From an uncultured Bacteroidota bacterium (lineage in GTDB: Bacteria; Bacteroidota; Bacteroidia; 2-12-FULL-35-15), in assembly GCA_903926385.1 (NCBI GenBank), contig CAIYIS010000072.1, positions 1 through 42,353 on the forward strand: a stretch of DNA of 42,353 bases. Reading direction: 5' to 3'. The notes beneath the pieces were generated by a model. The model had not been told where the DNA came from. It ran no database searches and saw only the letters and a list, made by a program, of their open reading frames with translations. Below are positions 2,375 to 35,936 of the stretch, piece after piece. A program made the translations under genes and the position numbers. How positions within the stretch are numbered: the first letter of the stretch is position 1; each line of letters begins with the position of its first letter.

Positions 2375-3349
2375 CTATAAAATTATGTTGAATAAATATC
2401 CTGAAATAATCATAAAGAGAGCTGTTGTTCCGAAATAAATAGCAATCATTTTCCAATTCATTATTTTTTTGAGAAGCATTGCTTCGGGTAATGATAAGCC
2501 TATAACGCCCATCATAAAAGCGATTGCAGTGCCAAGTGGAACTCCTTTGGCAACTAAAACTTTTACAACAGGTATTACTCCTGCTGCATTGCTATACATT
2601 GGAACACCCATTAACACAGCTAAAGGAACCGCATACCATTGTCCTTTATTAATGTAATGTTCAAAAAAGCCTGTTGGTAAAAAGCCGTGCATTAAGCCAC
2701 CAATAGCGATACCTATAATAATATATAATGAAACACCTTTTACAATGTTGAATGCTTCTTTTAATATTAATGGCATTCGTTGTATTAATGTCAGTTTTTC
2801 TTCCTGTAGTTCTTCTTCTGTTTGTGCGTTGGTAATAATGTTTTGCACCCAAGGGGAAAGATGTTTTTCTAATTTTAATTTACCTAAAACAAAACCTCCG
2901 ATTATTCCTAATACTATGCCTGTGCCTACATACAAGGCGGTTACTTTAAAACCGAATGCTCCCGCAAAAATTGCTATTGCGACTTCGTTGACTAATGGAG
3001 CTGTGATTAAATATGTAAATGTGATTCCTAAAGGTATGCCACCTTTTACAAAGCCTATGAATAAAGGAACAGAGGAGCAGGAGCAAAACGGGGTGATAAC
3101 TCCAAATGAGGAAGCAAATAAATATTCCAAGCCATACATTTTGTTTCTGCTTAAAAAATTTCGGACTTTGTCAACAGGGAAATAAGAGTTGACAATACCC
3201 ATGATAACAGTGATTACAAATAATAAGATGGCAATTTTGATGGTGTCGAATACAAAAAAATTGAGCGCTTGCCCCCAATGATTTTGAGAAGACAAGCCAA
3301 TGATTGAATAAATGAGCCAATCGGCAAAATATTGTAACCAGTTGAACAT
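2375..3349 (-). CDS. ArsP-type permease (PF03773 family)
   Basis: This 324-residue membrane protein has about eight hydrophobic segments. It carries the family motif TPFCSCSSVP (residues 86-95, Cys89 and Cys91) and the repeated-half motif GVPMYSNAAGVIPV. The family (formerly DUF318) includes ArsP, an efflux permease for trivalent organoarsenicals, and related Cu/Zn-efflux proteins. A charged loop around residues 160-195 separates the two halves. It sits between the CxxC thioredoxin and the rhodanese-ArsF gene, downstream of an ArsR-type repressor. That context supports metalloid or organoarsenical export, with the paired cysteines as likely ligands. The spacing to the upstream thioredoxin gene (112 bp) is wider than elsewhere in the operon, with no clear terminator in it. 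Confidence 0.75.
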   Translation of the reverse strand: MFNWLQYFADWLIYSIIGLSSQNHWGQALNFFVFDTIKIAILLFVITVIMGIVNSYFPVDKVRNFLSRNKMYGLEYLFASSFGVITPFCSCSSVPLFIGFVKGGIPLGITFTYLITAPLVNEVAIAIFAGAFGFKVTALYVGTGIVLGIIGGFVLGKLKLEKHLSPWVQNIITNAQTEEELQEEKLTLIQRMPLILKEAFNIVKGVSLYIIIGIAIGGLMHGFLPTGFFEHYINKGQWYAVPLAVLMGVPMYSNAAGVIPVVKVLVAKGVPLGTAIAFMMGVIGLSLPEAMLLKKIMNWKMIAIYFGTTALFMIISGYLFNIIL

Positions 3350-3461
3350 CGTGATTTTTAAGTTAACAAAAACTTGTTGTCCTACAGAGGCAATTATTTT
3401 AGTTGATAGTAGTCGGGCTTACCCATTTTACAAATTACTGAATTTCCTTTGGAATGAAAAT

Positions 3462-3698
3462 TTACTGTTTCAATAAGTCTACAATTTCGTTAATATCCGC
3501 AACTCTTCCTTTTACTTTTATTACCTCGTCTATCATTAATACAGGCGTAGTAAGCACATTGTATTTCATCATTTCTTCAATGTCTTCGATTTTGATTACT
3601 TCGGCTTGAATGCCTAATTGTTTGACAGCTTCTAACACATTACTGTAGGTGGTTTTGCACTTAGCACAGCCAGGCCCTAATACTTTTATTTTTTTCAT
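3462..3698 (-). CDS. Small CxxC thioredoxin-fold protein (redox-active disulfide protein, ArsE-like position)
   Basis: This is a 78-residue cytoplasmic thioredoxin-fold protein beginning MKKIKVLGPGCAKC, with active-site Cys11 and Cys14 and the cis-proline strand TTPVLMIDE. It belongs to the short redox-active disulfide protein group. I chose the ATG at 3698 rather than upstream in-frame codons because homology starts there; the upstream extension overlaps arsR and an inverted repeat. In the arsEFG layout this gene occupies the place of ArsE, the small thiol partner. It may supply electrons to the ArsG membrane carrier. An ArsR-like operator copy lies just upstream (3735-3752), so it may be regulated together with, or separately from, arsR. 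Confidence 0.8.
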   Translation of the reverse strand: MKKIKVLGPGCAKCKTTYSNVLEAVKQLGIQAEVIKIEDIEEMMKYNVLTTPVLMIDEVIKVKGRVADINEIVDLLKQ

Positions 3699-3734
3699 TG
3701 TTGTATTTATTTGCAAAGTTACTTTATATTCACT

Positions 3735-3752
3735 ATTCGTAATGTGACGAAT
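3735..3752. promoter_or_regulatory. Second ArsR-type operator (inverted repeat)
   Basis: The sequence is ATTCGT-N6-ACGAAT, a perfect 6-bp inverted repeat with a 6-bp centre. It lies between the arsR stop and the thioredoxin start. It has the same arms (TTCGT/ACGAA) and the same spacing as the repeat upstream of arsR at 4084-4101. Two copies in one operon make an ArsR binding site likely. Binding has not been shown. Confidence 0.7.
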
Positions 3753-3769
3753 ATCACGGTGAGGTGATT

Positions 3770-4069
3770 TTAGTCGAAAAAACCGATTAGCAAACCTTTT
3801 GCTAAATTCCAATTTTCTTTGTTAATGCAATATTTTGTTTTGGGAGGGTTGATTTCTCCTTGTATTAGCCCAGCCTCTCTTAATACCTTTAAATGTTGTG
3901 AAAGTGTACTGTTTGCAATGGGTAACTCGTCTGACATGTCGCCATGATAACAACAACTTTGCTTATTTAATAATTCGATTATTGCTACTCTTACCGGATG
4001 ACCTAAAGCATTAGCAAACTTTGCAACAAGTTCTTGTTTGTCGGTGTATTTTTTTGATGTGATTGCCAT
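3770..4069 (-). CDS. arsR: ArsR-family winged-helix repressor
   Basis: The protein has 99 residues, the usual ArsR length. The helix-turn-helix is seen in LPIANSTLSQHLKVLREAGLI (about residues 49-69), followed by a wing region. Candidate metal(loid) ligands are the vicinal Cys39-Cys40 (KQSCCYHGD), just before the recognition helices, and Cys81. Family knowledge: such repressors leave DNA when As(III), Sb(III) or another thiophilic ion binds the cysteines. It heads the operon reading toward lower coordinates, and perfect inverted repeats lie on either side of it. The inferred role is autoregulation and control of the permease/thioredoxin genes. The inducer could be another thiophilic metal. 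Confidence 0.85.
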   Translation of the reverse strand: MAITSKKYTDKQELVAKFANALGHPVRVAIIELLNKQSCCYHGDMSDELPIANSTLSQHLKVLREAGLIQGEINPPKTKYCINKENWNLAKGLLIGFFD

Positions 4070-5067: not shown

Positions 5068-5688
5068 ATGTCAAAAGCAAGTTCAATATTTAGCGACCCC
5101 AATCTTATAAAAGAGATAGAAACATCTGCAAAGATTAAAATGTTCAAGATGGGAGAGGTAATAATAAATGCAGGAGATGAAATTCTTTTTATTCCCCTAG
5201 TGATGAAAGGCAGTATTCGTATCATTCGTCAAAATTTGGATGGGGCTGAATCGTTTTTATATCATTTATATCCTGGCCAAACATGTGCAATGTCATTAAC
5301 TTGTTGTCAGGCCGGAAAAAAAAGCATGATAAAAGCTATTGCCGAAGTTAATTCCGAAATACTACAAATACCCGTTACTCAAACCGAAGATTGGTTCAAA
5401 TACCCTGAATGGAAAGCATATATCAGTAACAATTATAGCAACCGTTTTGCGGAATTAATTCAAGTAATCGACCTGATTTCGTTTAGTAATATGGACTTCC
5501 AATTACTGCACTATCTTGAAGAGCGTTCTAAGGCATTAAATACAAGAGTGCTTTATATCACTCATCAGGAAATAGCTGACGAACTTCATGTGCATCGCGA
5601 AACAATTAGCCGCTTGTTGCGTTTAATGGAACAAAAAAAGCTTGTTCTTTTGGGGCGCAACAATATTGAAGTATTGACTCAAAAATAA
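5068..5688 (+). CDS. Crp/Fnr-family transcriptional regulator
   Basis: The protein has 206 residues from the ATG at 5068; a TTG-started extension of 13 residues is not supported by family length. The N-terminal cyclic-nucleotide-binding fold spans about 10-125. It contains an unusual cysteine cluster, TCAMSLTCCQAG (about residues 73-84), in the loop where family members bind effectors. The C-terminal winged helix carries ITHQEIADELHVHRETISRLLR (about 161-182), the recognition helix. The cysteines suggest redox, nitric oxide, Fe-S or metalloid sensing instead of cAMP, which is inference. A promoter-like TTACTTTCG lies about 50 bp upstream. It heads a run of thiol genes on the same strand and is probably their regulator. 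Confidence 0.85.
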   Translation: MSKASSIFSDPNLIKEIETSAKIKMFKMGEVIINAGDEILFIPLVMKGSIRIIRQNLDGAESFLYHLYPGQTCAMSLTCCQAGKKSMIKAIAEVNSEILQIPVTQTEDWFKYPEWKAYISNNYSNRFAELIQVIDLISFSNMDFQLLHYLEERSKALNTRVLYITHQEIADELHVHRETISRLLRLMEQKKLVLLGRNNIEVLTQK

Positions 5689-5726
5689 ACAATTTCCTTC
5701 CTAATACCCATTTCCTTCAACATAAC

Positions 5727-5743
5727 ATCACAGGATTTGTGAT
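5727..5743. promoter_or_regulatory. Inverted repeat upstream of thioredoxin gene, possible regulator site
   Basis: ATCACA-GGATT-TGTGAT is a perfect 6-bp inverted repeat about 185 bp upstream of trxA and 40 bp after the Crp-family gene. TGTGA/TCACA are Crp/Fnr-type half-sites, although their order here is the reverse of the E. coli Crp site. It may be a site for the adjacent regulator. The remaining 5689-5928 gap shows no gene. Confidence 0.4.
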
Positions 5744-5928
5744 TATTATTTCATTCTGTTGATAAAGACGATTGCCTGTTTTTCAATAAATCGAATGATG
5801 GGTTCTCTCTTTATAAATCAAAATTAATTTTATAAAAATAAGGCTTATCCAACAAATGTTCCCAACCACTATTTTTTATTGCCGGACTTTTGTACCGAAA
5901 ATAATTAATAATAAAGTTTAAAAACAGT

Positions 5929-6225
5929 ATGGCAAATTTCAATGACATCATAAATTCAGAAAAACCTGTGTTGGTGGACTTCTCTGCCGAATGGTGTGGC
6001 CCATGCAAAATGATGTCGCCTATTTTGGAGCAGTTGAAAAAGATGATGGGCGAAACGGCAACAATAATAAAAGTGGATGTTGATAAAAACCCGAAAGCAG
6101 CTAGTATTTACCGAGTAAATAGTGTGCCTACTCTGATACTTTTTAAAAGGGGGGATGTAAAATGGCGACAGTCAGGGGTTGTACCAGCCGATCATTTAAA
6201 ATTAATAATAGACTTAAATAAATAA
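5929..6225 (+). CDS. trxA: Thioredoxin
   Basis: This is a 98-residue single thioredoxin domain without a signal peptide, so it is cytoplasmic. The active site is WCGPC (residues 22-26), the canonical form. Other family landmarks are VDFSAEW before it and the cis-Pro segment NSVPTLILF near residue 68. It is a general protein-disulfide reductant and could serve the OsmC proteins, the methyltransferase or the Cys-containing peptide encoded just downstream. The OsmC gene starts 4 bp after its stop, so the two are surely co-transcribed. A degraded second copy of this trx-osmC pair follows at 6734. The trxA symbol is by family; the housekeeping copy may be elsewhere in the genome. Confidence 0.92.
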
Positions 6226-6229
6226 AATT

Positions 6230-6673
6230 ATGAATACAGAACATTTTTATGAGGTGTCAGTAAATTGGCAAACAGACCGCAAAGGAATTGCGAGTTCACC
6301 GGTATTAAATTCAACTATTGAGGTGGTAACTCCCCCCGAATTCCCCAAAGGAATTGCAGGGTATTGGTCACCCGAACATTTATTTGTTGCCGCTGTCAAC
6401 AGTTGTTTAATGACAACATTTTTATCAATCGCAGAAAATTCAAAAGTTGAATTTACAAGTTTTGAATCAAAAGCTATCGGTAAGTTAGAAATGGTGGATG
6501 GCAAATATATGATTAGCGAAGTTACTTTAAGCCCCATACTTATTATAAAGGATGCAAATCAAAAGGAACGAGCAGAACGCGTCTTATTAAAATCAGAAGC
6601 CAATTGTTTAATTTCAAACTCAGTCAAATCAAAGATAACCTTCAATCCTCAGGTGATGGTTGAAAATCAGTAA
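6230..6673 (+). CDS. OsmC/Ohr-family protein
   Basis: This 147-residue protein belongs to the OsmC superfamily, which reduces organic hydroperoxides with a pair of cysteines. The first is in AAVNSCLMTTFL (Cys59) and the second in SEANCLISNS (Cys126); both conserved positions are present. The WSPEHLFVAA segment before Cys59 is also typical. It is cytoplasmic. It follows trxA by 4 bp and probably uses thioredoxin or a dithiol as reductant. A paralogue about 60% similar by eye lies immediately downstream, fused to a thioredoxin stump. An alternative role is handling of other oxidised thiols or of electrophiles. Confidence 0.85.
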   Translation: MNTEHFYEVSVNWQTDRKGIASSPVLNSTIEVVTPPEFPKGIAGYWSPEHLFVAAVNSCLMTTFLSIAENSKVEFTSFESKAIGKLEMVDGKYMISEVTLSPILIIKDANQKERAERVLLKSEANCLISNSVKSKITFNPQVMVENQ

Positions 6674-6733
6674 TCTGAAAAATATTAATCCTTTAATATC
6701 ACGAATAAAAGTTAATCACTTAATATAGATCGT

Positions 6734-7252
6734 ATGACATTTTCAGAAAATACACATTTAAACAAATCTCCAATGGTTGATTTTTCTTCAGAGTGGTGTT
6801 TACCTTGTATGAATAACACAGAGCATTTTTATGAAGTGTCTTTAAACTGGCAATCCGGCAGAATAGGAATGTTGCACTCTCCAGAATTGAGTAAATCCGT
6901 CCAAGTGGTTACTCCTCCTGAATTTCCTAATGGTATTCAAGGCATCTGGTCACCCGAACACTTACTTTTAGCAGCAGTTAATAGTTGCTTAATGACAACC
7001 TTTCTCTCTGTTTCTGAAAATGCAGAATTAGAGTTCATCAATTTCGAATCAAAAGCAATTGGTAAATTGGAAATGGTTAACGGAAAATACATGATTAGTG
7101 AAATAACATTAACTCCAGTTCTCTCCATTTCAGATAAGCAAAATAGTAATAGAGCAACACTCTTGCTTCAAAAGTCCGAAGACAATTGTTTAATTGCAAA
7201 TTCCACCAAGTCAAAAATTATCTTTAAACCGGAAATAAAAATTATAAATTAA
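6734..7252 (+). CDS. Thioredoxin stump fused to OsmC-family domain
   Basis: The 172-residue protein starts with about 25 residues that align with trxA up to its active site (VDFSSEWCLPC, Cys22 and Cys25). It then passes directly into a full OsmC domain (MNNTEHFYEVSLNW...), with both OsmC cysteines kept (AAVNSCLMTT and SEDNCLIANS). It looks like a duplicate of the upstream trx-osmC pair in which the rest of the thioredoxin was deleted in frame. An internal ATG at 6809 sits exactly where the ancestral OsmC start would be, so a 147-residue form may also be made. If the longer form is translated, the OsmC domain carries an extra CxxC tail. The next gene starts 6 bp downstream. Confidence 0.8.
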   Translation: MTFSENTHLNKSPMVDFSSEWCLPCMNNTEHFYEVSLNWQSGRIGMLHSPELSKSVQVVTPPEFPNGIQGIWSPEHLLLAAVNSCLMTTFLSVSENAELEFINFESKAIGKLEMVNGKYMISEITLTPVLSISDKQNSNRATLLLQKSEDNCLIANSTKSKIIFKPEIKIIN

Positions 7253-7258
7253 TCTATT

Positions 7259-7933
7259 ATGAAAAACGAAAATTTAACTAAAGAAAGTTCAATTGAAATA
7301 AACAAACGATATACCGACTTAGCTTCATCAGATTGTTGCCTTTCGTGCGGTGGGGCTGTTAATTATGCCGAAGCAAAACCATATGAGGTTTGTGTTGACT
7401 TAGGTAGTGGTAGAGGCACAGACGCTTTGCGTCTTGCCGAGTCAGTTGGCATCAATGGTCATGTGTATGGTATCGACATGTCCGATGGCATGATTGACAA
7501 AGCGATTAAAACAGCTGAGCGAATGGAAGTCAAAAATGTGAGTTTTATAAAAAGCGAATTAGAACACATCGATTTGAAAAGTAACATAGCCGACCTTATC
7601 ATTTCCAACTGTACCATTAACCATTCTTCCAACAAACAAGCGGTTTGGAATGAAGTCTATCGAATTTTAAATGAAGGAGGAAGATTTGTTGTCAGCGATA
7701 TTTATTCATTATCACCCATCCCCGATGAATACAAAAACGACCCTGTTGCTATTGCCGAATGCTGGGCAGGTTCTGTTACAAGAGAAGAATATTTGAATCA
7801 GCTCGAAAAAGCTGGTTTTTCATCAGTAAACATTATTGAGGAATCTTCACCCTACTCAAAAGGGAAGGTGATGGTTTCGAGCTGGACAATTGCGGCTGTT
7901 AAAAAATCACAGAGCTGTGGTTGTTGCGGATAA
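7259..7933 (+). CDS. ArsM-like SAM methyltransferase with Cys-rich tail
   Basis: This is a 224-residue Rossmann methyltransferase. Motif I is VDLGSGRGTDAL (46-57), the acidic SAM-ribose contact is GIDMSDGM (71-78), and SDIYS is at 146-150. Two cysteines sit where arsenite methyltransferases (ArsM) have their As(III) ligands: SNCTINHSS (Cys118) and AECWAGSVTREEYL (Cys168). A further set (DCCLSC, Cys26, 27, 30; Cys45) precedes motif I, and the protein ends in CGCCG. It is shorter than typical ArsM proteins (over 260 residues) and lacks their C-terminal extension. As(III) S-adenosylmethionine methylation is therefore likely but not certain. It lies in the trx-osmC operon, just before the small Cys peptide, and could also modify that peptide. 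Confidence 0.7.
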   Translation: MKNENLTKESSIEINKRYTDLASSDCCLSCGGAVNYAEAKPYEVCVDLGSGRGTDALRLAESVGINGHVYGIDMSDGMIDKAIKTAERMEVKNVSFIKSELEHIDLKSNIADLIISNCTINHSSNKQAVWNEVYRILNEGGRFVVSDIYSLSPIPDEYKNDPVAIAECWAGSVTREEYLNQLEKAGFSSVNIIEESSPYSKGKVMVSSWTIAAVKKSQSCGCCG

Positions 7934-7986
7934 TGCGAGTAAAGAGTACCAATAAATAATTATTAATTTTTTAAACAAGCTTTCTT

Positions 7987-8085
7987 ATGAAAAGTTTAAT
8001 CAAAAAAAAAGAAGTTGAGTCTACTGCCAAAGTTGCTCAATGCTGTGCCAAAATTTCTAAAACCGTTGCAGGTTGCCACGATTAA
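7987..8085 (+). CDS. Candidate RiPP precursor peptide (32 aa)
   Basis: This short open frame encodes 32 residues: a Lys/Glu-rich leader-like half starting MKSLIKKKEVE, then a core-like half CCAKISKTVAGCHD with three cysteines. It fits the pattern of a ribosomally made, post-translationally modified peptide: tiny, charged N-terminus, residue-biased C-terminus, 53 bp after a methyltransferase gene and 72 bp before a radical SAM/SPASM maturase. A strong terminator hairpin follows at once, a common way to make much more precursor than enzyme. The vicinal Cys-Cys plus a third Cys could take thioether bonds or bind a thiophilic metal(loid). I do not recognise the family. A chance open frame cannot be excluded, but the context argues against it. 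Confidence 0.7.
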   Translation: MKSLIKKKEVESTAKVAQCCAKISKTVAGCHD

Positions 8086-8103
8086 GAAACTATGCTCATT
8101 CAA

Positions 8104-8133
8104 AAGAGTGCTGATAAATCAGCACTCTTTTTT
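8104..8133 (+). terminator. Intrinsic terminator/attenuator between peptide and maturase genes
   Basis: The stem AAGAGTGCTGA / TCAGCACTCTT (11 bp, perfect) has a TAAA loop and is followed by a run of T. It lies 18 bp after the peptide stop and 24 bp before the maturase start. Partial read-through would set a high peptide-to-enzyme ratio. Confidence 0.85.
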
Positions 8134-8157
8134 AAGTAACATTTTAATTCCTCAAAA

Positions 8158-9495
8158 ATGCATTATTCCAAACATAATATTTTTTCGAAAATAAAAGATT
8201 CTGAAAATTACTTTATCGTAAACCTGCTTACAGGCAATGCTGATATTGTAAGCCCTGATTTCGCCCAACTGATTAATCAGGTACGAAACAACAATGAAAT
8301 TGAAGATGTCAATTTCAAAAACGAACTCATTGATAAAGGCTATTTAGCAGATAAAACAGCAGAAGACAAACTTTACCGAAGTAAATACCTCGATTTTATC
8401 GATACGCGTGATGAAGATGAAATTCAGCTTTTTTTCGTTCCTAATTACACTTGCAACTTTGCCTGTTCTTACTGTTATCAAGATCAATATGCTCCTGCAA
8501 CAGGAGTGTTAACCACAGAAATTATTGATGCCTTCTTTGTCTATATTCAAAAAGAATTTGCGGGCAAACATAAATATATAACCATATTTGGTGGTGAACC
8601 TTTATTGAATACCCCCAAACAAAAAGAGCTAATCAAGTATTTTATTAATCAAGCAAATAATTCAGAAATCGACATCTGTTTTGTTACCAATGGATATACA
8701 CTCATCGACTATATCGACATTTTAAAGCAAGGTCGTATTCGTGAAATTCAAATTACCCTTGACGGTACTTCCGAATTTCATAATACCCGCAGATTCTTAA
8801 AAGGTGGTGGACCTACTTTCGAAAAAATTGTTCAAGGCATTGACGCATGTATTGCCAACCAACTTACTGTAAATTTAAGAATGGTGATTGACAAAGAGAA
8901 CATCACCAATCTTCCTGATCTTGCCCAATTAGCTATCGATAAAGGATGGACATCAAGCTTGTTCTTCAAAACACAAATTGGCCGTAACTACGAATTACAT
9001 CACTGTCAATCGGCAGGTGGCAAGCTTTTTAGTCGTGTATCATTGTACGAAAATCTATATACCCTTATTCAACAATATCCTCATATCCTCAAATTTTATA
9101 AACCCGCTTATTCAGTCTCCAAATTTCTTTCCGAAAATGGAGAGTTGCCTAGTCCATTGTTCGACTCTTGCCCCGCTTGTAAAACCGAATGGGCTTTCGA
9201 TTACACCGGAACAATCTACCCTTGCACAGCCACAGTTGGTAAAGCCAATGAAGCTCTGGGAACTTTCTATCCCGAAATAAAAATGGAAACGAAATTAGCC
9301 GAAGAATGGGAGAGAAGAGATGTGGTTTCAATTCCTCAATGTAAAAACTGCAATCTTCAATTAGCTTGTGGAGGCGGATGCGGTTCGGTTGCTAAAAATA
9401 ATAACGGCTCCGTTTGCTCCCCTGATTGCCGACCTGTCTCTGAATTACTGGAAATTGGCTTCGCTGCTTATTTTGGTTCCGAAGTCGCTAATTAG
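8158..9495 (+). CDS. Radical SAM/SPASM peptide maturase
   Basis: The 445-residue enzyme has three parts. Residues 1-82 resemble the precursor-recognition (RRE-like) N-terminus of peptide maturases (NYFIVNLLTG...LIDKGYL). The radical SAM core has CNFACSYC (Cys99, 103, 106) for the 4Fe-4S cluster and FGGEPLL (144-150) for SAM binding. The C-terminal SPASM domain carries Cys338, 341, 356, 395, 398, 404, 408, 420 and 424, including CKNCNLQLACGGGC, enough for two auxiliary clusters. Such enzymes cross-link or otherwise modify short peptides, often making Cys thioethers. The obvious substrate is the 32-residue peptide encoded just upstream. The following thioredoxin-reductase fusion may supply reducing power. 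The exact chemistry is unknown. Confidence 0.88.
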   Translation: MHYSKHNIFSKIKDSENYFIVNLLTGNADIVSPDFAQLINQVRNNNEIEDVNFKNELIDKGYLADKTAEDKLYRSKYLDFIDTRDEDEIQLFFVPNYTCNFACSYCYQDQYAPATGVLTTEIIDAFFVYIQKEFAGKHKYITIFGGEPLLNTPKQKELIKYFINQANNSEIDICFVTNGYTLIDYIDILKQGRIREIQITLDGTSEFHNTRRFLKGGGPTFEKIVQGIDACIANQLTVNLRMVIDKENITNLPDLAQLAIDKGWTSSLFFKTQIGRNYELHHCQSAGGKLFSRVSLYENLYTLIQQYPHILKFYKPAYSVSKFLSENGELPSPLFDSCPACKTEWAFDYTGTIYPCTATVGKANEALGTFYPEIKMETKLAEEWERRDVVSIPQCKNCNLQLACGGGCGSVAKNNNGSVCSPDCRPVSELLEIGFAAYFGSEVAN

Positions 9496-9553
9496 TAAAC
9501 CTTGTTCAAATAATAGTACAATACATTAGTAAATAACTTTTAATATTAAAATT

Positions 9554-10822
9554 ATGAAAACCATATCTACAGCCGAATTCGAAAAAGTAGTTCTCAACGG
9601 TGGCAAAGTTGTTGTCGATTTCTATTCCACTGAATGTGCTCCTTGTGAAGCACTCGCTCCTAAATTTGACAGTTGTGCCGAATTTTATGGAAACGATATC
9701 TCGTTTGTAAAAATATTTCGTCAGGAAAATCGTGAACTGGCAACTCAACTCGATGTTAAAAGTTCTCCAACCGTTTTATTTTTCGACAACGGAAAGCAAG
9801 TTGGCCCTTCTCTTACAGGAGGCATCAAACGTTCTGAACTAACATCAAATCTCGACTCCTTAATCTCTCCACAACAAGTAGCTCTGATAAAATCTAAAAT
9901 CAAAAAAACAGAATTTTATTACGATACAGTTATTCTTGGAGGTGGTCCTGCCGGTTTGGCTGCCGCCATCTATCTCGGACAAGCTAAGGTTAACACCGTA
10001 TTAATCGACCGTGCTTTGCCCGGTGGTCAGGTCTCCACCACTCATCAGGTTTCTAATTATCCCGGATTTGTTGAGCCCGTTAATGGCTACATGCTTTCTC
10101 ATTACATGTCCGAACAAGCCAAAAAAGCAGGTGTTCAATACAAATCTGCAGTCGATATCACCTCAGTTAACCTGGAAAATAAGTCCATAATTATTGACGA
10201 AATCGAAACAATCCACTTCAAATACTTAATCTTGGCTACTGGTGCTTCTCCTCGTCCCTTAAACATACCGGGCGAAAAAGAATTTAAAGGTCATGGCATT
10301 TCTTATTGCGCCACTTGCGATGCAAAGTACTTTCAGGACAAAGAAGTCATCATAATTGGCGGGGGAAATTCTGCTATCGAAGAAGCCGACTTTATTTCTA
10401 AATTCGCTTCAAAAATCACTATTGTTCATCAATTCGATAAACTACAAGCCAACAAGGAAGCACAGGAAAAAGCTTTTGCAAACCCCAAAATCAATTTCCT
10501 CTTCCATACCGAACCTCTCGCATTTATTCAAGAAGGTGATAAGATGATTGTAAATATTGAAAACATTATTTCCAAAACTACAACCACCATTTCTGCTGAC
10601 GGTATTTTTGTTTTTGTCGGAATGCAACCTAACCTTGATATGTTCACTAATCAATTTGCACAGGACGATTGGGGATACCTCAAAGTTTCTGACGAAATGG
10701 AAACTTCCTTACCGGATATTTATTCTGTTGGCGATATTAACAGCAAAAAATTTCGTCAAATAACAACCGCTGTTGCCGATGGCACCATTGCAGCTATTGC
10801 CATTTCCAGAAAATTAAACTAA
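9554..10822 (+). CDS. Thioredoxin-thioredoxin reductase fusion
   Basis: This 422-residue protein joins an N-terminal thioredoxin domain (1-105) to a thioredoxin reductase (about 122-422). The thioredoxin active site is ECAPC (Cys28, Cys31), with Glu where Trp is usual. The reductase has the FAD motif GGGPAGLAAA (129-138), redox pair CATC (252-255), NADPH motif GGGNSA (269-274) and the C-terminal FAD motif YSVGDI. In known mycobacterial fusions thioredoxin is at the C-terminus; here it is at the N-terminus. The fused domain may be a dedicated electron outlet to a partner such as the rSAM product, the OsmC proteins or the methyltransferase. It is 58 bp after the maturase gene, same strand. Confidence 0.9.
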   Translation: MKTISTAEFEKVVLNGGKVVVDFYSTECAPCEALAPKFDSCAEFYGNDISFVKIFRQENRELATQLDVKSSPTVLFFDNGKQVGPSLTGGIKRSELTSNLDSLISPQQVALIKSKIKKTEFYYDTVILGGGPAGLAAAIYLGQAKVNTVLIDRALPGGQVSTTHQVSNYPGFVEPVNGYMLSHYMSEQAKKAGVQYKSAVDITSVNLENKSIIIDEIETIHFKYLILATGASPRPLNIPGEKEFKGHGISYCATCDAKYFQDKEVIIIGGGNSAIEEADFISKFASKITIVHQFDKLQANKEAQEKAFANPKINFLFHTEPLAFIQEGDKMIVNIENIISKTTTTISADGIFVFVGMQPNLDMFTNQFAQDDWGYLKVSDEMETSLPDIYSVGDINSKKFRQITTAVADGTIAAIAISRKLN

Positions 10823-10852
10823 ATCGATACTACACCTTATTATAACTAGAAA

Positions 10853-11479
10853 ATGAAAAGGCGGAACGAACTTACCTTAGAACAACGAATGAATAGAGTT
10901 CGCAAAATTCGGGAAAAACAAATATTAGAAGAACAAAAAGAAATTTCGCAAAACCACGGCTCTTTTATTTACAAACTTGCTATCATTAGCAGTATTATTA
11001 CCTGATCTCTTTCACTTTTTGTTGGCATCGACTGGCTATTGCCCAATCGTACTGCATCAAACAAAATAACAGTTGGCTACACAAGCAAAACAAAACCTGC
11101 ATCCGATTTCCGAAGCAAGGAAGAGCAAACTTTAGTCATCACTCTTGCTAATCTCTCAGAAAAGGTTGGATTAAAAGTAAAAGCAGAGCAACTCCTCCCT
11201 CAGGCAAACGATAGTGTGCTTGTTTCAAAATCACTTATTCTTAACGAAACAAAAATCATCAAGGATATAACAAACAAAGAAACCTACTCAGCCAACACCA
11301 TTACTTACTACCTCTTATCCGTTTTCATTGCCCTTTCTATACTTGCATTACTTTTCTTTATTTACAGAAACATGCCAGTCAAAGCATTTTATTATATAAT
11401 TTTTGGTGTAAACTTCCTATCATTAATTGGTCTGGTTATCGCAACCTATATCTTTAGCCGTGGCCCTATGATTTACTGA
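10853..11479 (+). pseudogene. Membrane protein gene interrupted by an in-frame TGA
   Basis: An ATG at 10853 opens a frame with a basic coiled-coil-like N-terminus (MKRRNELTLEQRMNRVRK) and the start of a membrane segment. At 11003-11005 a TGA stops it after 50 codons. The same frame continues without further stops to a TGA at 11477. The continuation completes the membrane helix (SLSLFVGIDWLLPN), then gives an extra-membrane domain and two more helices. A single G-to-A change of a Trp codon would explain the break. Full length would be 208 codons. It follows the thioredoxin-reductase fusion by 30 bp. It is either a recent nonsense mutation, a sequence error, or two separate products. Selenocysteine is unlikely. 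Confidence 0.7.
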
Positions 11480-11605: not shown

Positions 11606-11866
11606 CTATTTTCCAGGCGTACCTTTGTTTGCTTTCTTTTCGCCATTCATTTGGCAGTTTTTTTCACACTTCGCATCATGTTTGTCACATTTCATGTCCG
11701 AAGTACATTTTTTCTCACCGTTATTTTTCATGCAATTTTCCTTAGTAGCACATGCTTTCATGTCGCCCTTATTATCGCATTTTTTTTGACATTTACTTCC
11801 ATCTTGTGCAATTGAGCTCATAGCTACAAACAAAACGGTTACTGTTGTTAAAATTAATTTTTTCAT
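11606..11866 (-). CDS. Small secreted protein with eight cysteines
   Basis: The 86-residue protein has a clear signal peptide (MKKLILTTVTVLFVAMSSIAQ). The mature part of about 65 residues is rich in Lys, Asp, Asn and Met, with eight cysteines in loose KCQKKC, CATKENC and CDKHDAKC patterns. There is no recognisable fold. It may bind thiophilic metals or metalloids outside the cytoplasm, or act as a small redox buffer. It is transcribed away from a two-component system whose sensor is also Cys-rich, with four phased repeats in between, so it is a likely target of that system. A TACCTTTG promoter box lies 26 bp upstream of the start. Function unknown. Confidence 0.75.
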   Translation of the reverse strand: MKKLILTTVTVLFVAMSSIAQDGSKCQKKCDNKGDMKACATKENCMKNNGEKKCTSDMKCDKHDAKCEKNCQMNGEKKANKGTPGK

Positions 11867-35573: not shown

Positions 35574-35626
35574 GCTCTCCTTTTTCGTAATATACTGAAC
35601 TCCTTTCTGTTTACTGCAAAACCAAA

Positions 35627-35936
35627 GTTGGCGCAACTCGGACAAGAGTTGGCGCAACTCGGACAAGAGTTGGAGCAACTCGGATAAGAGTTAGCGCAAC
35701 TCGGATAAGAGTTGGCGCAACTCGGACAAGAGTTGGAGCAACTCGGATAAGAGTTGGAGCAACTCGGATACGGTTGGCGCAACTCGGACAAGAGTTGGTG
35801 CAACTCGAACAAGAGTTGGCGCAACTCGGACAAGAGTTGGAGCAACTCGGACAAGAGTTGGAGCAACTCGGACAAGAGTTGGAGCAAACCGGACAAGAGT
35901 TGGAGCAAACCGGACAAGAGTTGGCGCAACTTTTAT
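35627..35936. repeat. 21-bp tandem repeat array, 15 copies
   Basis: Fifteen copies of GAGTTGGCGCAACTCGGACAA-type units begin at 35627 and end with a diverged copy at 35920. Thirteen intervals are 21 bp and one (copy 7 to 8) is 20 bp. Variants differ at single sites (GGCGC, GGAGC, GGTGC; CTCGG, ACCGG). Each unit contains a small palindrome, AGTTG-NNN-CAACT. Because 21 is a multiple of 3, all frames stay open, so minus-strand frames with Ser-Cys-Pro or Leu-rich repeats appear here; I do not call them genes. It is a minisatellite directly after a terminator. Confidence 0.92.

Follow-up and report, generated by a model that had tools for sequence, protein, structure and literature searches.

A conserved three-cysteine peptide gene paired with a putative radical SAM/SPASM maturase, an ArsM-type methyltransferase and a thioredoxin reductase fusion in Bacteroidota

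A contig of 42,353 nucleotides from an uncultured Bacteroidota bacterium (assembly GCA_903926385.1, contig CAIYIS010000072.1; the complete contig C72 of genome G000 in our numbering) was analyzed as a whole and is called the window here, its positions serving as coordinates. On its plus strand, genes for a thioredoxin, two OsmC-like proteins and an ArsM-type methyltransferase are followed by a 32-codon open reading frame, a radical S-adenosylmethionine (SAM) gene and a gene for a thioredoxin fused to thioredoxin reductase (the Trx-TrxR fusion). The 32-codon frame is a real gene, and many uncultured Bacteroidota and related bacteria encode nearly the same peptide beside the same kind of radical SAM protein. 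The system is best read as a new family of radical SAM-matured peptide, one in which the gene partners and the peptide core are unusually constant. We suggest, tentatively, that the matured peptide remains intracellular and takes part in thiol or metalloid chemistry together with the ArsM-type enzyme and the Trx-TrxR fusion.

A conserved peptide gene and its pairing with a radical SAM gene

The original prediction, made from the window alone, was that the 32-codon frame, with a leader-like start and a core, encodes the precursor of a ribosomally synthesized and post-translationally modified peptide (RiPP), and that the radical SAM protein is its maturase. The full frame (7987-8085) translates to MKSLIKKKEVESTAKVAQCCAKISKTVAGCHD, which has no match in NCBIfam, Pfam, PHROG or PADLOC. 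When 84,980 species genomes were scanned for relatives of the radical SAM protein, 269 were found, of which the best 80 (58-77% identical) were fetched; together with the window and a genome from another family of the class (G202, 57% identical), they make up the 82 loci to which the neighborhood counts refer. Two duplicates (L001 of the window and L003 of L005) and one unrelated weak radical SAM match (L002) were excluded, and at least two assemblies contribute two loci each (L016 and L019; L023 and L067).

A peptide fitting the loose pattern CC-x(7-12)-C lies within 700 nt directly upstream of the radical SAM gene in 77 of the 82 loci. Two of the other five (L046 and L074) are on contigs that start inside the radical SAM gene, and in the remaining three (L008, L009 and L013) the peptide is encoded at another place in the genome, immediately downstream of an ArsM-type gene. 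This is the linkage of a conserved precursor gene to a maturase that marks radical SAM-class RiPPs. The outcomes named in advance as telling against the pairing, maturase homologues that lack a conserved neighboring peptide or that pair with a different precursor, were not encountered: other CC-x(7-12)-C frames in the same 700 nt are scattered and do not recur, other kinds of precursor not having been searched for.

The peptides share the core AQCCAK-x-S-xxxx-GCHD. In an alignment of 80 peptides (those of the 77 loci plus L086, L087 and L089), residues A-16, C-14, C-13, A-12, K-11, S-9, G-4, C-3, H-2 and D-1, numbered back from the C terminus, are invariant, CCAK and GCHD among them being fixed by the pattern used for selection; the looser search, which required only CC-x(7-12)-C, returned the same peptides. 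Q-15 varies once, and third codon bases of the fixed residues do vary. The ratio of nonsynonymous to synonymous differences (pN/pS) is 0.145 over the last 17 codons, where synonymous differences are near saturation (pS 0.80), and 0.155 over the first seven codons. The start is exactly MKSL[IV]KK in 44 of the 80 peptides and a close variant of it in most others (the peptide of L005 is truncated at its start by a contig end, and the first residue of some peptides was chosen among in-frame ATGs), and the K-rich middle differs in length and sequence among relatives. Because pN/pS is low in both parts and both the MKSL[IV]KK start and the core are so constant, it follows that start and core are held at the protein level. 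Complete relatives have 31-39 residues; the peptide of the window has 32, with three cysteines. In a genome of the same genus (G022, radical SAM protein 76-77% identical), the last 26 residues are encoded at a contig start with the core unchanged, and in G202 the peptide MKSLVKKIKKNGKKVAQCCAKISKNVMGCHD is encoded between the ArsM-type and radical SAM genes.

Peptide and radical SAM gene also co-occur across genomes. Among 395 genomes of the phylum, strong peptide matches (E < 1e-11) were found in G000, G457, G541, G544, G618 and G756, and the radical SAM profile scored 660-814 bits in the same six genomes, the next radical SAM protein scoring 247 bits; the other 389 genomes have no strong match to either. 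The peptide profile used for the phylum included G000 and G544 (the latter apparently the same locus as L075), and the four genomes outside it (G541, G618, G756 and G457) matched with E-values of 7.6e-12 to 4.1e-15. All five genomes that the peptide profile detected outside the class have the ArsM-type, peptide and radical SAM genes in a row and a thioredoxin reductase match on the same stretch. In a class sample, also of 395 genomes, G000 and G202 alone have both peptide and radical SAM protein, and within the genus the radical SAM gene is present in 2 of 36 genomes. Weak peptide matches with E-values of 0.0017-0.0094 (four genomes or places in the class sample, two in the phylum sample) and one of 0.38 are partial and come from frames that differ in length or contain stops; they were treated as noise and not examined singly. 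The conservation, the codon pattern and the co-occurrence with the maturase rule out a chance frame. Conserved adjacency and joint presence in genomes of the phylum and class point, at the level of sequence, to a precursor and maturase pair, as originally proposed.

The radical SAM protein and the other members of the operon

The radical SAM protein contains a CX3CX2C motif (C99, C103 and C106) and seven SPASM cysteines (338, 356, 395, 398, 404, 408 and 424), the number that defines the SPASM domain of ranthipeptide maturases. All 82 aligned proteins keep the CX3CX2C motif, an extra cysteine (C283) and the seven SPASM cysteines, the sole exception being one unread X at 424. An AlphaFold2 model built on a 52-row alignment (mean pLDDT 79) predicts the order strand-strand-strand-helix-helix-helix for residues 1-84, and its top structure match is CteB (5wgg; Z 23.9 over 396 residues at 3.9 Å, model residues 4-442; Foldseek E 1.5e-16), a thioether-forming maturase in which an N-terminal RiPP recognition element (RRE) binds the leader and a SPASM domain follows (PMC8326336). 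From the strand and helix order and the alignment with CteB, the N-terminal domain is predicted to be RRE-like, which agrees with what had been read from the window. The protein is matched by 77 NCBIfam models, and none of the best 25 of the 77 reaches its cut-off; the best profiles are CefB (150.5 of 600 bits), TIGR04463 (128.6 of 525), Clo7bot (120.8 of 600) and PapB (119.7 of 340), all four being peptide maturases named for Cys-rich, Clo7bot or ranthipeptide precursors.

Radical SAM proteins outside the family (at most 247 bits; 27-29% identical) have different surroundings. Beside one of these, 27% identical, two tandem and near-identical 73-residue frames, each with CECC, form a candidate precursor pair (L119, 2844-3355, minus strand), and downstream of another is a 52-residue frame with three cysteines, also a candidate precursor (L118, 1245-1403, minus strand). 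On a second contig of G457 (L121, 1084-1806), a start that by eye resembles a heavy-metal-associated domain is joined to approximately the last 98 residues of the radical SAM family; this joined frame may be a real fusion, a fragment or an assembly fault.

An ArsM-type gene lies upstream of the peptide in 73 of the 82 loci by tblastn, which recovered the gene in four loci where greedy picking of open reading frames had overlooked it. Of the nine loci without it, six have less than 0.9 kb of upstream sequence and three have ArsM-type gene and peptide elsewhere. Some ArsM is present in 153 of the 330 phylum genomes compared (E 1e-25 or better), and scores of at least 285 bits to the ArsM-type protein of the window occur only in the five peptide genomes among the 330 (56-64% identical), all others scoring at most 138.5 bits. 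The operon enzyme is therefore a distinct short subfamily, found only with the peptide in these 330 genomes, and four of the five genomes that have it also list another ArsM. Its closest solved structures, by comparison with a predicted model, are arsenite methyltransferases (4fr0; Z 24.3 over 190 residues at 2.2 Å). In CmArsM, the arsenic ligands are Cys72, Cys174 and Cys224 (PMC3877260), to which, on our reading of the alignments, C30, C118 and C168 of the operon enzyme correspond; these three cysteines are found in 65/65 aligned operon members (short or broken frames excluded) and 25/25 conventional ArsMs. The subfamily has extra cysteines at C26 and C27 (64/65) and C45 (65/65), and the enzyme scores below the NCBIfam cut-off for arsenite methyltransferases (NF008823; 188.8 of 263 bits).

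The Trx-TrxR fusion was found in 79 of the 82 loci, as one tblastn segment across both domains and always downstream of the start of the radical SAM gene. It is absent from L030 and L035, whose contigs end just after the radical SAM gene, and its frame is broken in L036; in L055 it is only 43% identical. In two of five phylum genomes (G756 and G457), the reductase gene precedes the ArsM-type gene instead of following the radical SAM gene. The thioredoxin motif EC[PA]PC is present in 72 of 79 frames (ECPPC in most relatives of the window), the other seven having no CxxC within the first 70 residues, and the reductase motif CATC is present in 77 of 79. Because an ordinary reductase, 33% identical, is encoded on contig C7 of the window's genome, the fusion is an extra reductase. 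Evolutionary distances of the radical SAM, ArsM-type and reductase proteins correlate at 0.84-0.92 over 60 loci (ArsM-type against radical SAM, 0.915), with 0/999 permutations as high, although shared genome ancestry alone would yield some of this correlation.

Other neighbors are less constant. Thioredoxin-like proteins are best matches in 35 of the 82 loci. Within 5 kb, DUF302 (38/82), DUF6132 (37/82), a thioredoxin cluster (32/82) and DUF1847 (18/82) recur, as do an IS1595-type zinc-ribbon protein (17/82), a Crp-type regulator (14/82), a YgaP-like membrane protein (12/82) and a flavoprotein (12/82); OsmC, rhodanese, TauE and others occur in 4-8 loci. The IS1595-type protein is a stand-alone protein of about 150 residues, encoded divergently on the minus strand about 1.8 kb upstream of the radical SAM gene (also in L092 and L107), and is possibly a domesticated regulator. 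We rejected OsmC, one of the thiol-related neighbors cited in the original prediction, as an operon partner: an OsmC gene is near only 6 of the 82 loci, a pair like that of the window occurring in one by tblastn and another OsmC-family gene in five. The absence of an export or leader-cleaving gene, noted for the window, extends to the family, in that no peptide transporter or protease was named among the 29 neighbor clusters found in at least four of the 82 loci (27 named by Pfam scan of representatives, two unnamed). Carriage by a phage or plasmid was rejected; no relative was present among 45 pattern matches in viral contigs (a phage collection was not searched), and plasmid matches were at most 28.3% identical in five of the six records listed. 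A defense system was likewise rejected, the only matches being viperin-like (for the radical SAM protein) and Mad2 (for the methyltransferase).

A terminator hairpin between the peptide and the radical SAM gene had also been predicted. It is present in the 72-nt gap of the window as a 13-bp hairpin followed by T residues (minimum free energy -19.1 kcal/mol, z -5.2), and a similar one can be read in the closest relative, G022, but it is not universal: 29 of 77 gaps are shorter than 30 nt, 27 of the 47 gaps that measure 45-260 nt fold more stably than shuffled sequences by two standard deviations (z below -2), and 8 of the 48 gaps of at least 45 nt match a strict terminator pattern. A general scan of 5600-11000 gave four sites, this hairpin not among them. 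Because many gaps are too short and only part of the long ones fit, the hairpin is optional, and we rejected it as a defining part of the operon.

Table 1. Features of the operon region in the window
Feature	Position	Strand	Basis or remark
Thioredoxin	5929..6225	+	PF00085; frequent, inconstant neighbor of the operon
OsmC-like protein (first)	6230..6673	+	PF02566; among the 82 loci, this type in the window only
Second OsmC-like protein, with N-terminal thioredoxin fragment	6734..7252	+	PF02566; 65.5% identity to the first
ArsM-type SAM methyltransferase, short operon-specific subfamily, 224 aa	7259..7933	+	Predicted structure, cysteines, subfamily scores
32-residue precursor-like peptide, core AQCCAKISKTVAGCHD	7987..8085	+	Conservation, pairing with the radical SAM gene
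Terminator-like hairpin between peptide and putative maturase	8102..8133	+	13-bp stem, 4-nt loop, T tail
Putative radical SAM/SPASM maturase, 445 codons, predicted RRE-like N-terminal domain (~residues 1-84)	8158..9495	+	PF04055
Thioredoxin domain fused to thioredoxin reductase	9554..10822	+	Motifs here ECAPC (thioredoxin) and CATC (reductase)

The second OsmC-like gene resembles a tandem copy of the thioredoxin-OsmC unit from which most of the thioredoxin has been lost: residues 3-25 of its product match thioredoxin, including the CLPC site (E 2e-6), the identity to the first OsmC-like protein being that of the remainder. Elsewhere in the window, an ArsP-type permease (PF03773) and, named by eye, a small thioredoxin-like protein and an ArsR-like regulator are encoded divergently from the operon (2375-4069, minus strand); the same trio is present in L025. 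An 86-residue Cys/Lys-rich protein with a start that looks signal-like by eye and without a Pfam match is encoded at 11606-11866 (minus strand), and a 21-bp tandem repeat in 14.6 copies (35626-35931) has minus-strand frames that are Cys-rich or Leu-rich.

Possible roles of the matured peptide

The radical SAM protein very probably modifies the peptide in some way. In the mechanism we propose, its RRE-like domain would bind the leader (MKSL[IV]KK or a close variant plus the variable K-rich stretch), the radical SAM domain would take a hydrogen from a core residue, and a cysteine sulfur would attack. The part altered would be the core, AQCCAK-x-S-xxxx-GCHD, and of the possible changes one cysteine-derived thioether is the most likely, with somewhat better than an even chance of being right; the closest relatives of the maturase form cysteine thioethers. 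A first guess for the bond would be C30 to D32, within the C-terminal GCHD that never varies, although as a particular bond this is improbable. PapB forms Cys-to-Asp thioethers in CX3D and accepts one to five intervening residues (PMC9413430), and the C-H-D end of the peptide would fit a thioether of this type because its one intervening residue falls in that range. C19-C20 would be left as a free vicinal dithiol, and the product would remain in the cytoplasm, where we consider it likely to act. The dithiol, with H31 and with C30 if free, may hold a thiophilic metalloid, most plausibly As(III), or cycle as a redox dithiol; the ArsM-type enzyme of the operon would act on the cargo of the peptide, and the Trx-TrxR fusion would reduce both peptide and enzyme. 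As(III) binds up to three thiols, and arsenic-glutathione complexes have been proposed as methyltransferase substrates (PMC3877260); therefore, a di- or trithiol on the peptide could present As(III) to the ArsM-type enzyme. That the peptide handles a metalloid at all is possible, if doubtful, and the fullest version of the idea, in which the modified peptide is a dedicated carrier of As(III) or a similar metalloid and the co-substrate of its own ArsM-type enzyme, kept reduced by the Trx-TrxR fusion, is rather unlikely. The main ground for the arsenic reading is the ArsM-type partner.

Several observations weigh against a matured thiol peptide of this kind. The radical SAM model is weak at residues 281-290, 321-340 and 381-445 (block pLDDT 39-65). 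Chains of anSME and ChlB tie with CteB as structure matches (Z 22.5-23.7), aligned only from about residue 82-88, and TigE, which makes cyclopropane rings rather than thioethers, aligns over the full length of the model (1-442, Z 19.4). At peptide position -10, only 54 of the 80 peptides have Thr, others having I, Q, V or S, and the residue has changed repeatedly on the tree. We rejected Thr at this position as a fixed acceptor on its variation, which also makes a Cys-to-Thr bond of the CteA kind unlikely; -10 and -7, both often Thr, are less likely acceptors because both vary. The recurrence of DUF302, DUF6132, DUF1847 and the flavoprotein suggests sulfur or redox chemistry equally. Of the thiol and metalloid setting originally described, the ArsM-type and Trx-TrxR genes are steady partners, whereas OsmC is occasional and arsenic-specific neighbors are rare: ArsP and ArsR are near the operon in two of the 82 loci (the window and L025), and Acr3 in none. 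Elsewhere in the window's genome lies a conventional arsenic cluster (L157; contig C48, 37184-39355), in which Acr3 and a low-molecular-weight phosphatase (PF01451, ArsC-type by eye) accompany an ArsM of the conventional kind. The operon is therefore not the main arsenic defense of its genome, which means that it does something more special, or something else.

Alternatively, the ArsM-type enzyme could be a tailoring methyltransferase that acts on the radical SAM-modified peptide, at a cysteine sulfur or at a radical-derived carbon, with no arsenic involved. The gene order in the three genomes in which the radical SAM gene lies apart (in G418 by about 10 kb, within one contig) favors such a role, since ArsM-type gene and peptide are adjacent in all three, and so does the distinctness of the short subfamily in genomes that mostly list another ArsM. 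A tailoring role is nevertheless unlikely in our view, given that cysteines matched to the As(III) site are kept in every aligned member and that the predicted fold is closest to arsenite methyltransferases.

The peptide could instead protect against stress from reactive sulfur or peroxide as a thiol or redox cofactor that the Trx-TrxR fusion regenerates, methylation by the ArsM-type enzyme being a side branch. We give this explanation about the same weight as a tailoring role and keep both near the preferred reading. Thioredoxins, DUF302, DUF6132, DUF1847, a flavoprotein disulfide oxidoreductase, rhodanese, TauE and OsmC recur nearby, and the fusion is additional to an ordinary reductase in the window's genome, both of which speak for it; none of these neighbors, however, is as constant as the near-complete ArsM-type gene.

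A secreted signal or bacteriocin of the ordinary RiPP type is very improbable. SCIFF (six cysteines in forty-five residues) ranthipeptides have been linked to quorum sensing, to judge from a title cited in PMC8326336, but the same source argues from the wide spread of SCIFF against an antimicrobial role, no peptide transporter or protease family was named among the recurrent neighbor clusters, and the core is near-invariant, other classes of the phylum included, unlike toxins under diversification. Equally remote is an unmodified metallothionein-like peptide with a radical SAM enzyme that works on another substrate: three cysteines, a histidine and an aspartate may suffice to bind metal unmodified, yet the strict co-occurrence of peptide and maturase, the conserved leader start and the predicted RRE-like domain of the enzyme all argue against it. 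The system is compact and has clear limits, which opens it to direct testing.

Relation to known systems

No description of the peptide or operon was present among the matches listed in the literature searched, although one may exist elsewhere, and no paper there contains the literal peptide motif; the main text of a survey of Bacteroidales RiPPs has neither "arsen" nor "thioredoxin" (PMC10352776). The nearest known system by overall fold is SCIFF (CteA/CteB), which likewise combines a radical SAM/SPASM enzyme and an N-terminal RRE with a short cysteine-containing precursor and is widely conserved within its lineage. SCIFF precursors, however, have six cysteines in about 45 residues, whereas the peptides described here have three in 31-39 (32 in the window), their partners include the ArsM-type enzyme and the Trx-TrxR fusion, and the radical SAM protein scores far below the cut-off for SCIFF maturases (TIGR03974; 80.2 of 425 bits). 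PapB, CefB, TIGR04463 and Clo7bot maturases give its best profile matches, at full or near-full length except for PapB (residues 98-421 only), yet the protein is far below every cut-off, and its identity to the products of plasmid-borne genes that carry TIGR04463 and Clo7bot maturase annotations is 27-28%. The operon methyltransferase shares its predicted fold and three cysteines with CmArsM, CrArsM and AS3MT and differs in being short (most often 214 residues) and in having CCLSCGG, the extra invariant C45, NCT-x-NH and ECWAG; among the matches listed, its identity to the phylum's other ArsMs is 30-42%. Bufferins, which are modified by multinuclear non-heme iron oxidases (MNIO) and bind copper, offer a parallel in the idea of a cysteine-containing peptide against metal stress (PMC12452194). 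In contrast to bufferins, the enzyme here is a radical SAM protein, no MNIO family was named among the 29 recurrent neighbor clusters, and the peptide frame of the window has, by eye, no signal peptide.

Radical SAM peptides are mostly known as secreted antimicrobials or signals, with a few cofactors, such as pyrroloquinoline quinone and mycofactocin, among them. A core that is almost fixed in several classes, a methyltransferase subfamily of its own and a thioredoxin reductase fusion, without recurrent export genes, resemble the pattern of these cofactors more than that of weapons. Should the product prove to bind arsenic or a similar metalloid, metalloid metabolism would have a thiol ligand made by the ribosome. 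If the product is also a carrier, it would be a ribosomal counterpart of glutathione and phytochelatin complexes, and a RiPP that acts as an intracellular enzyme partner.

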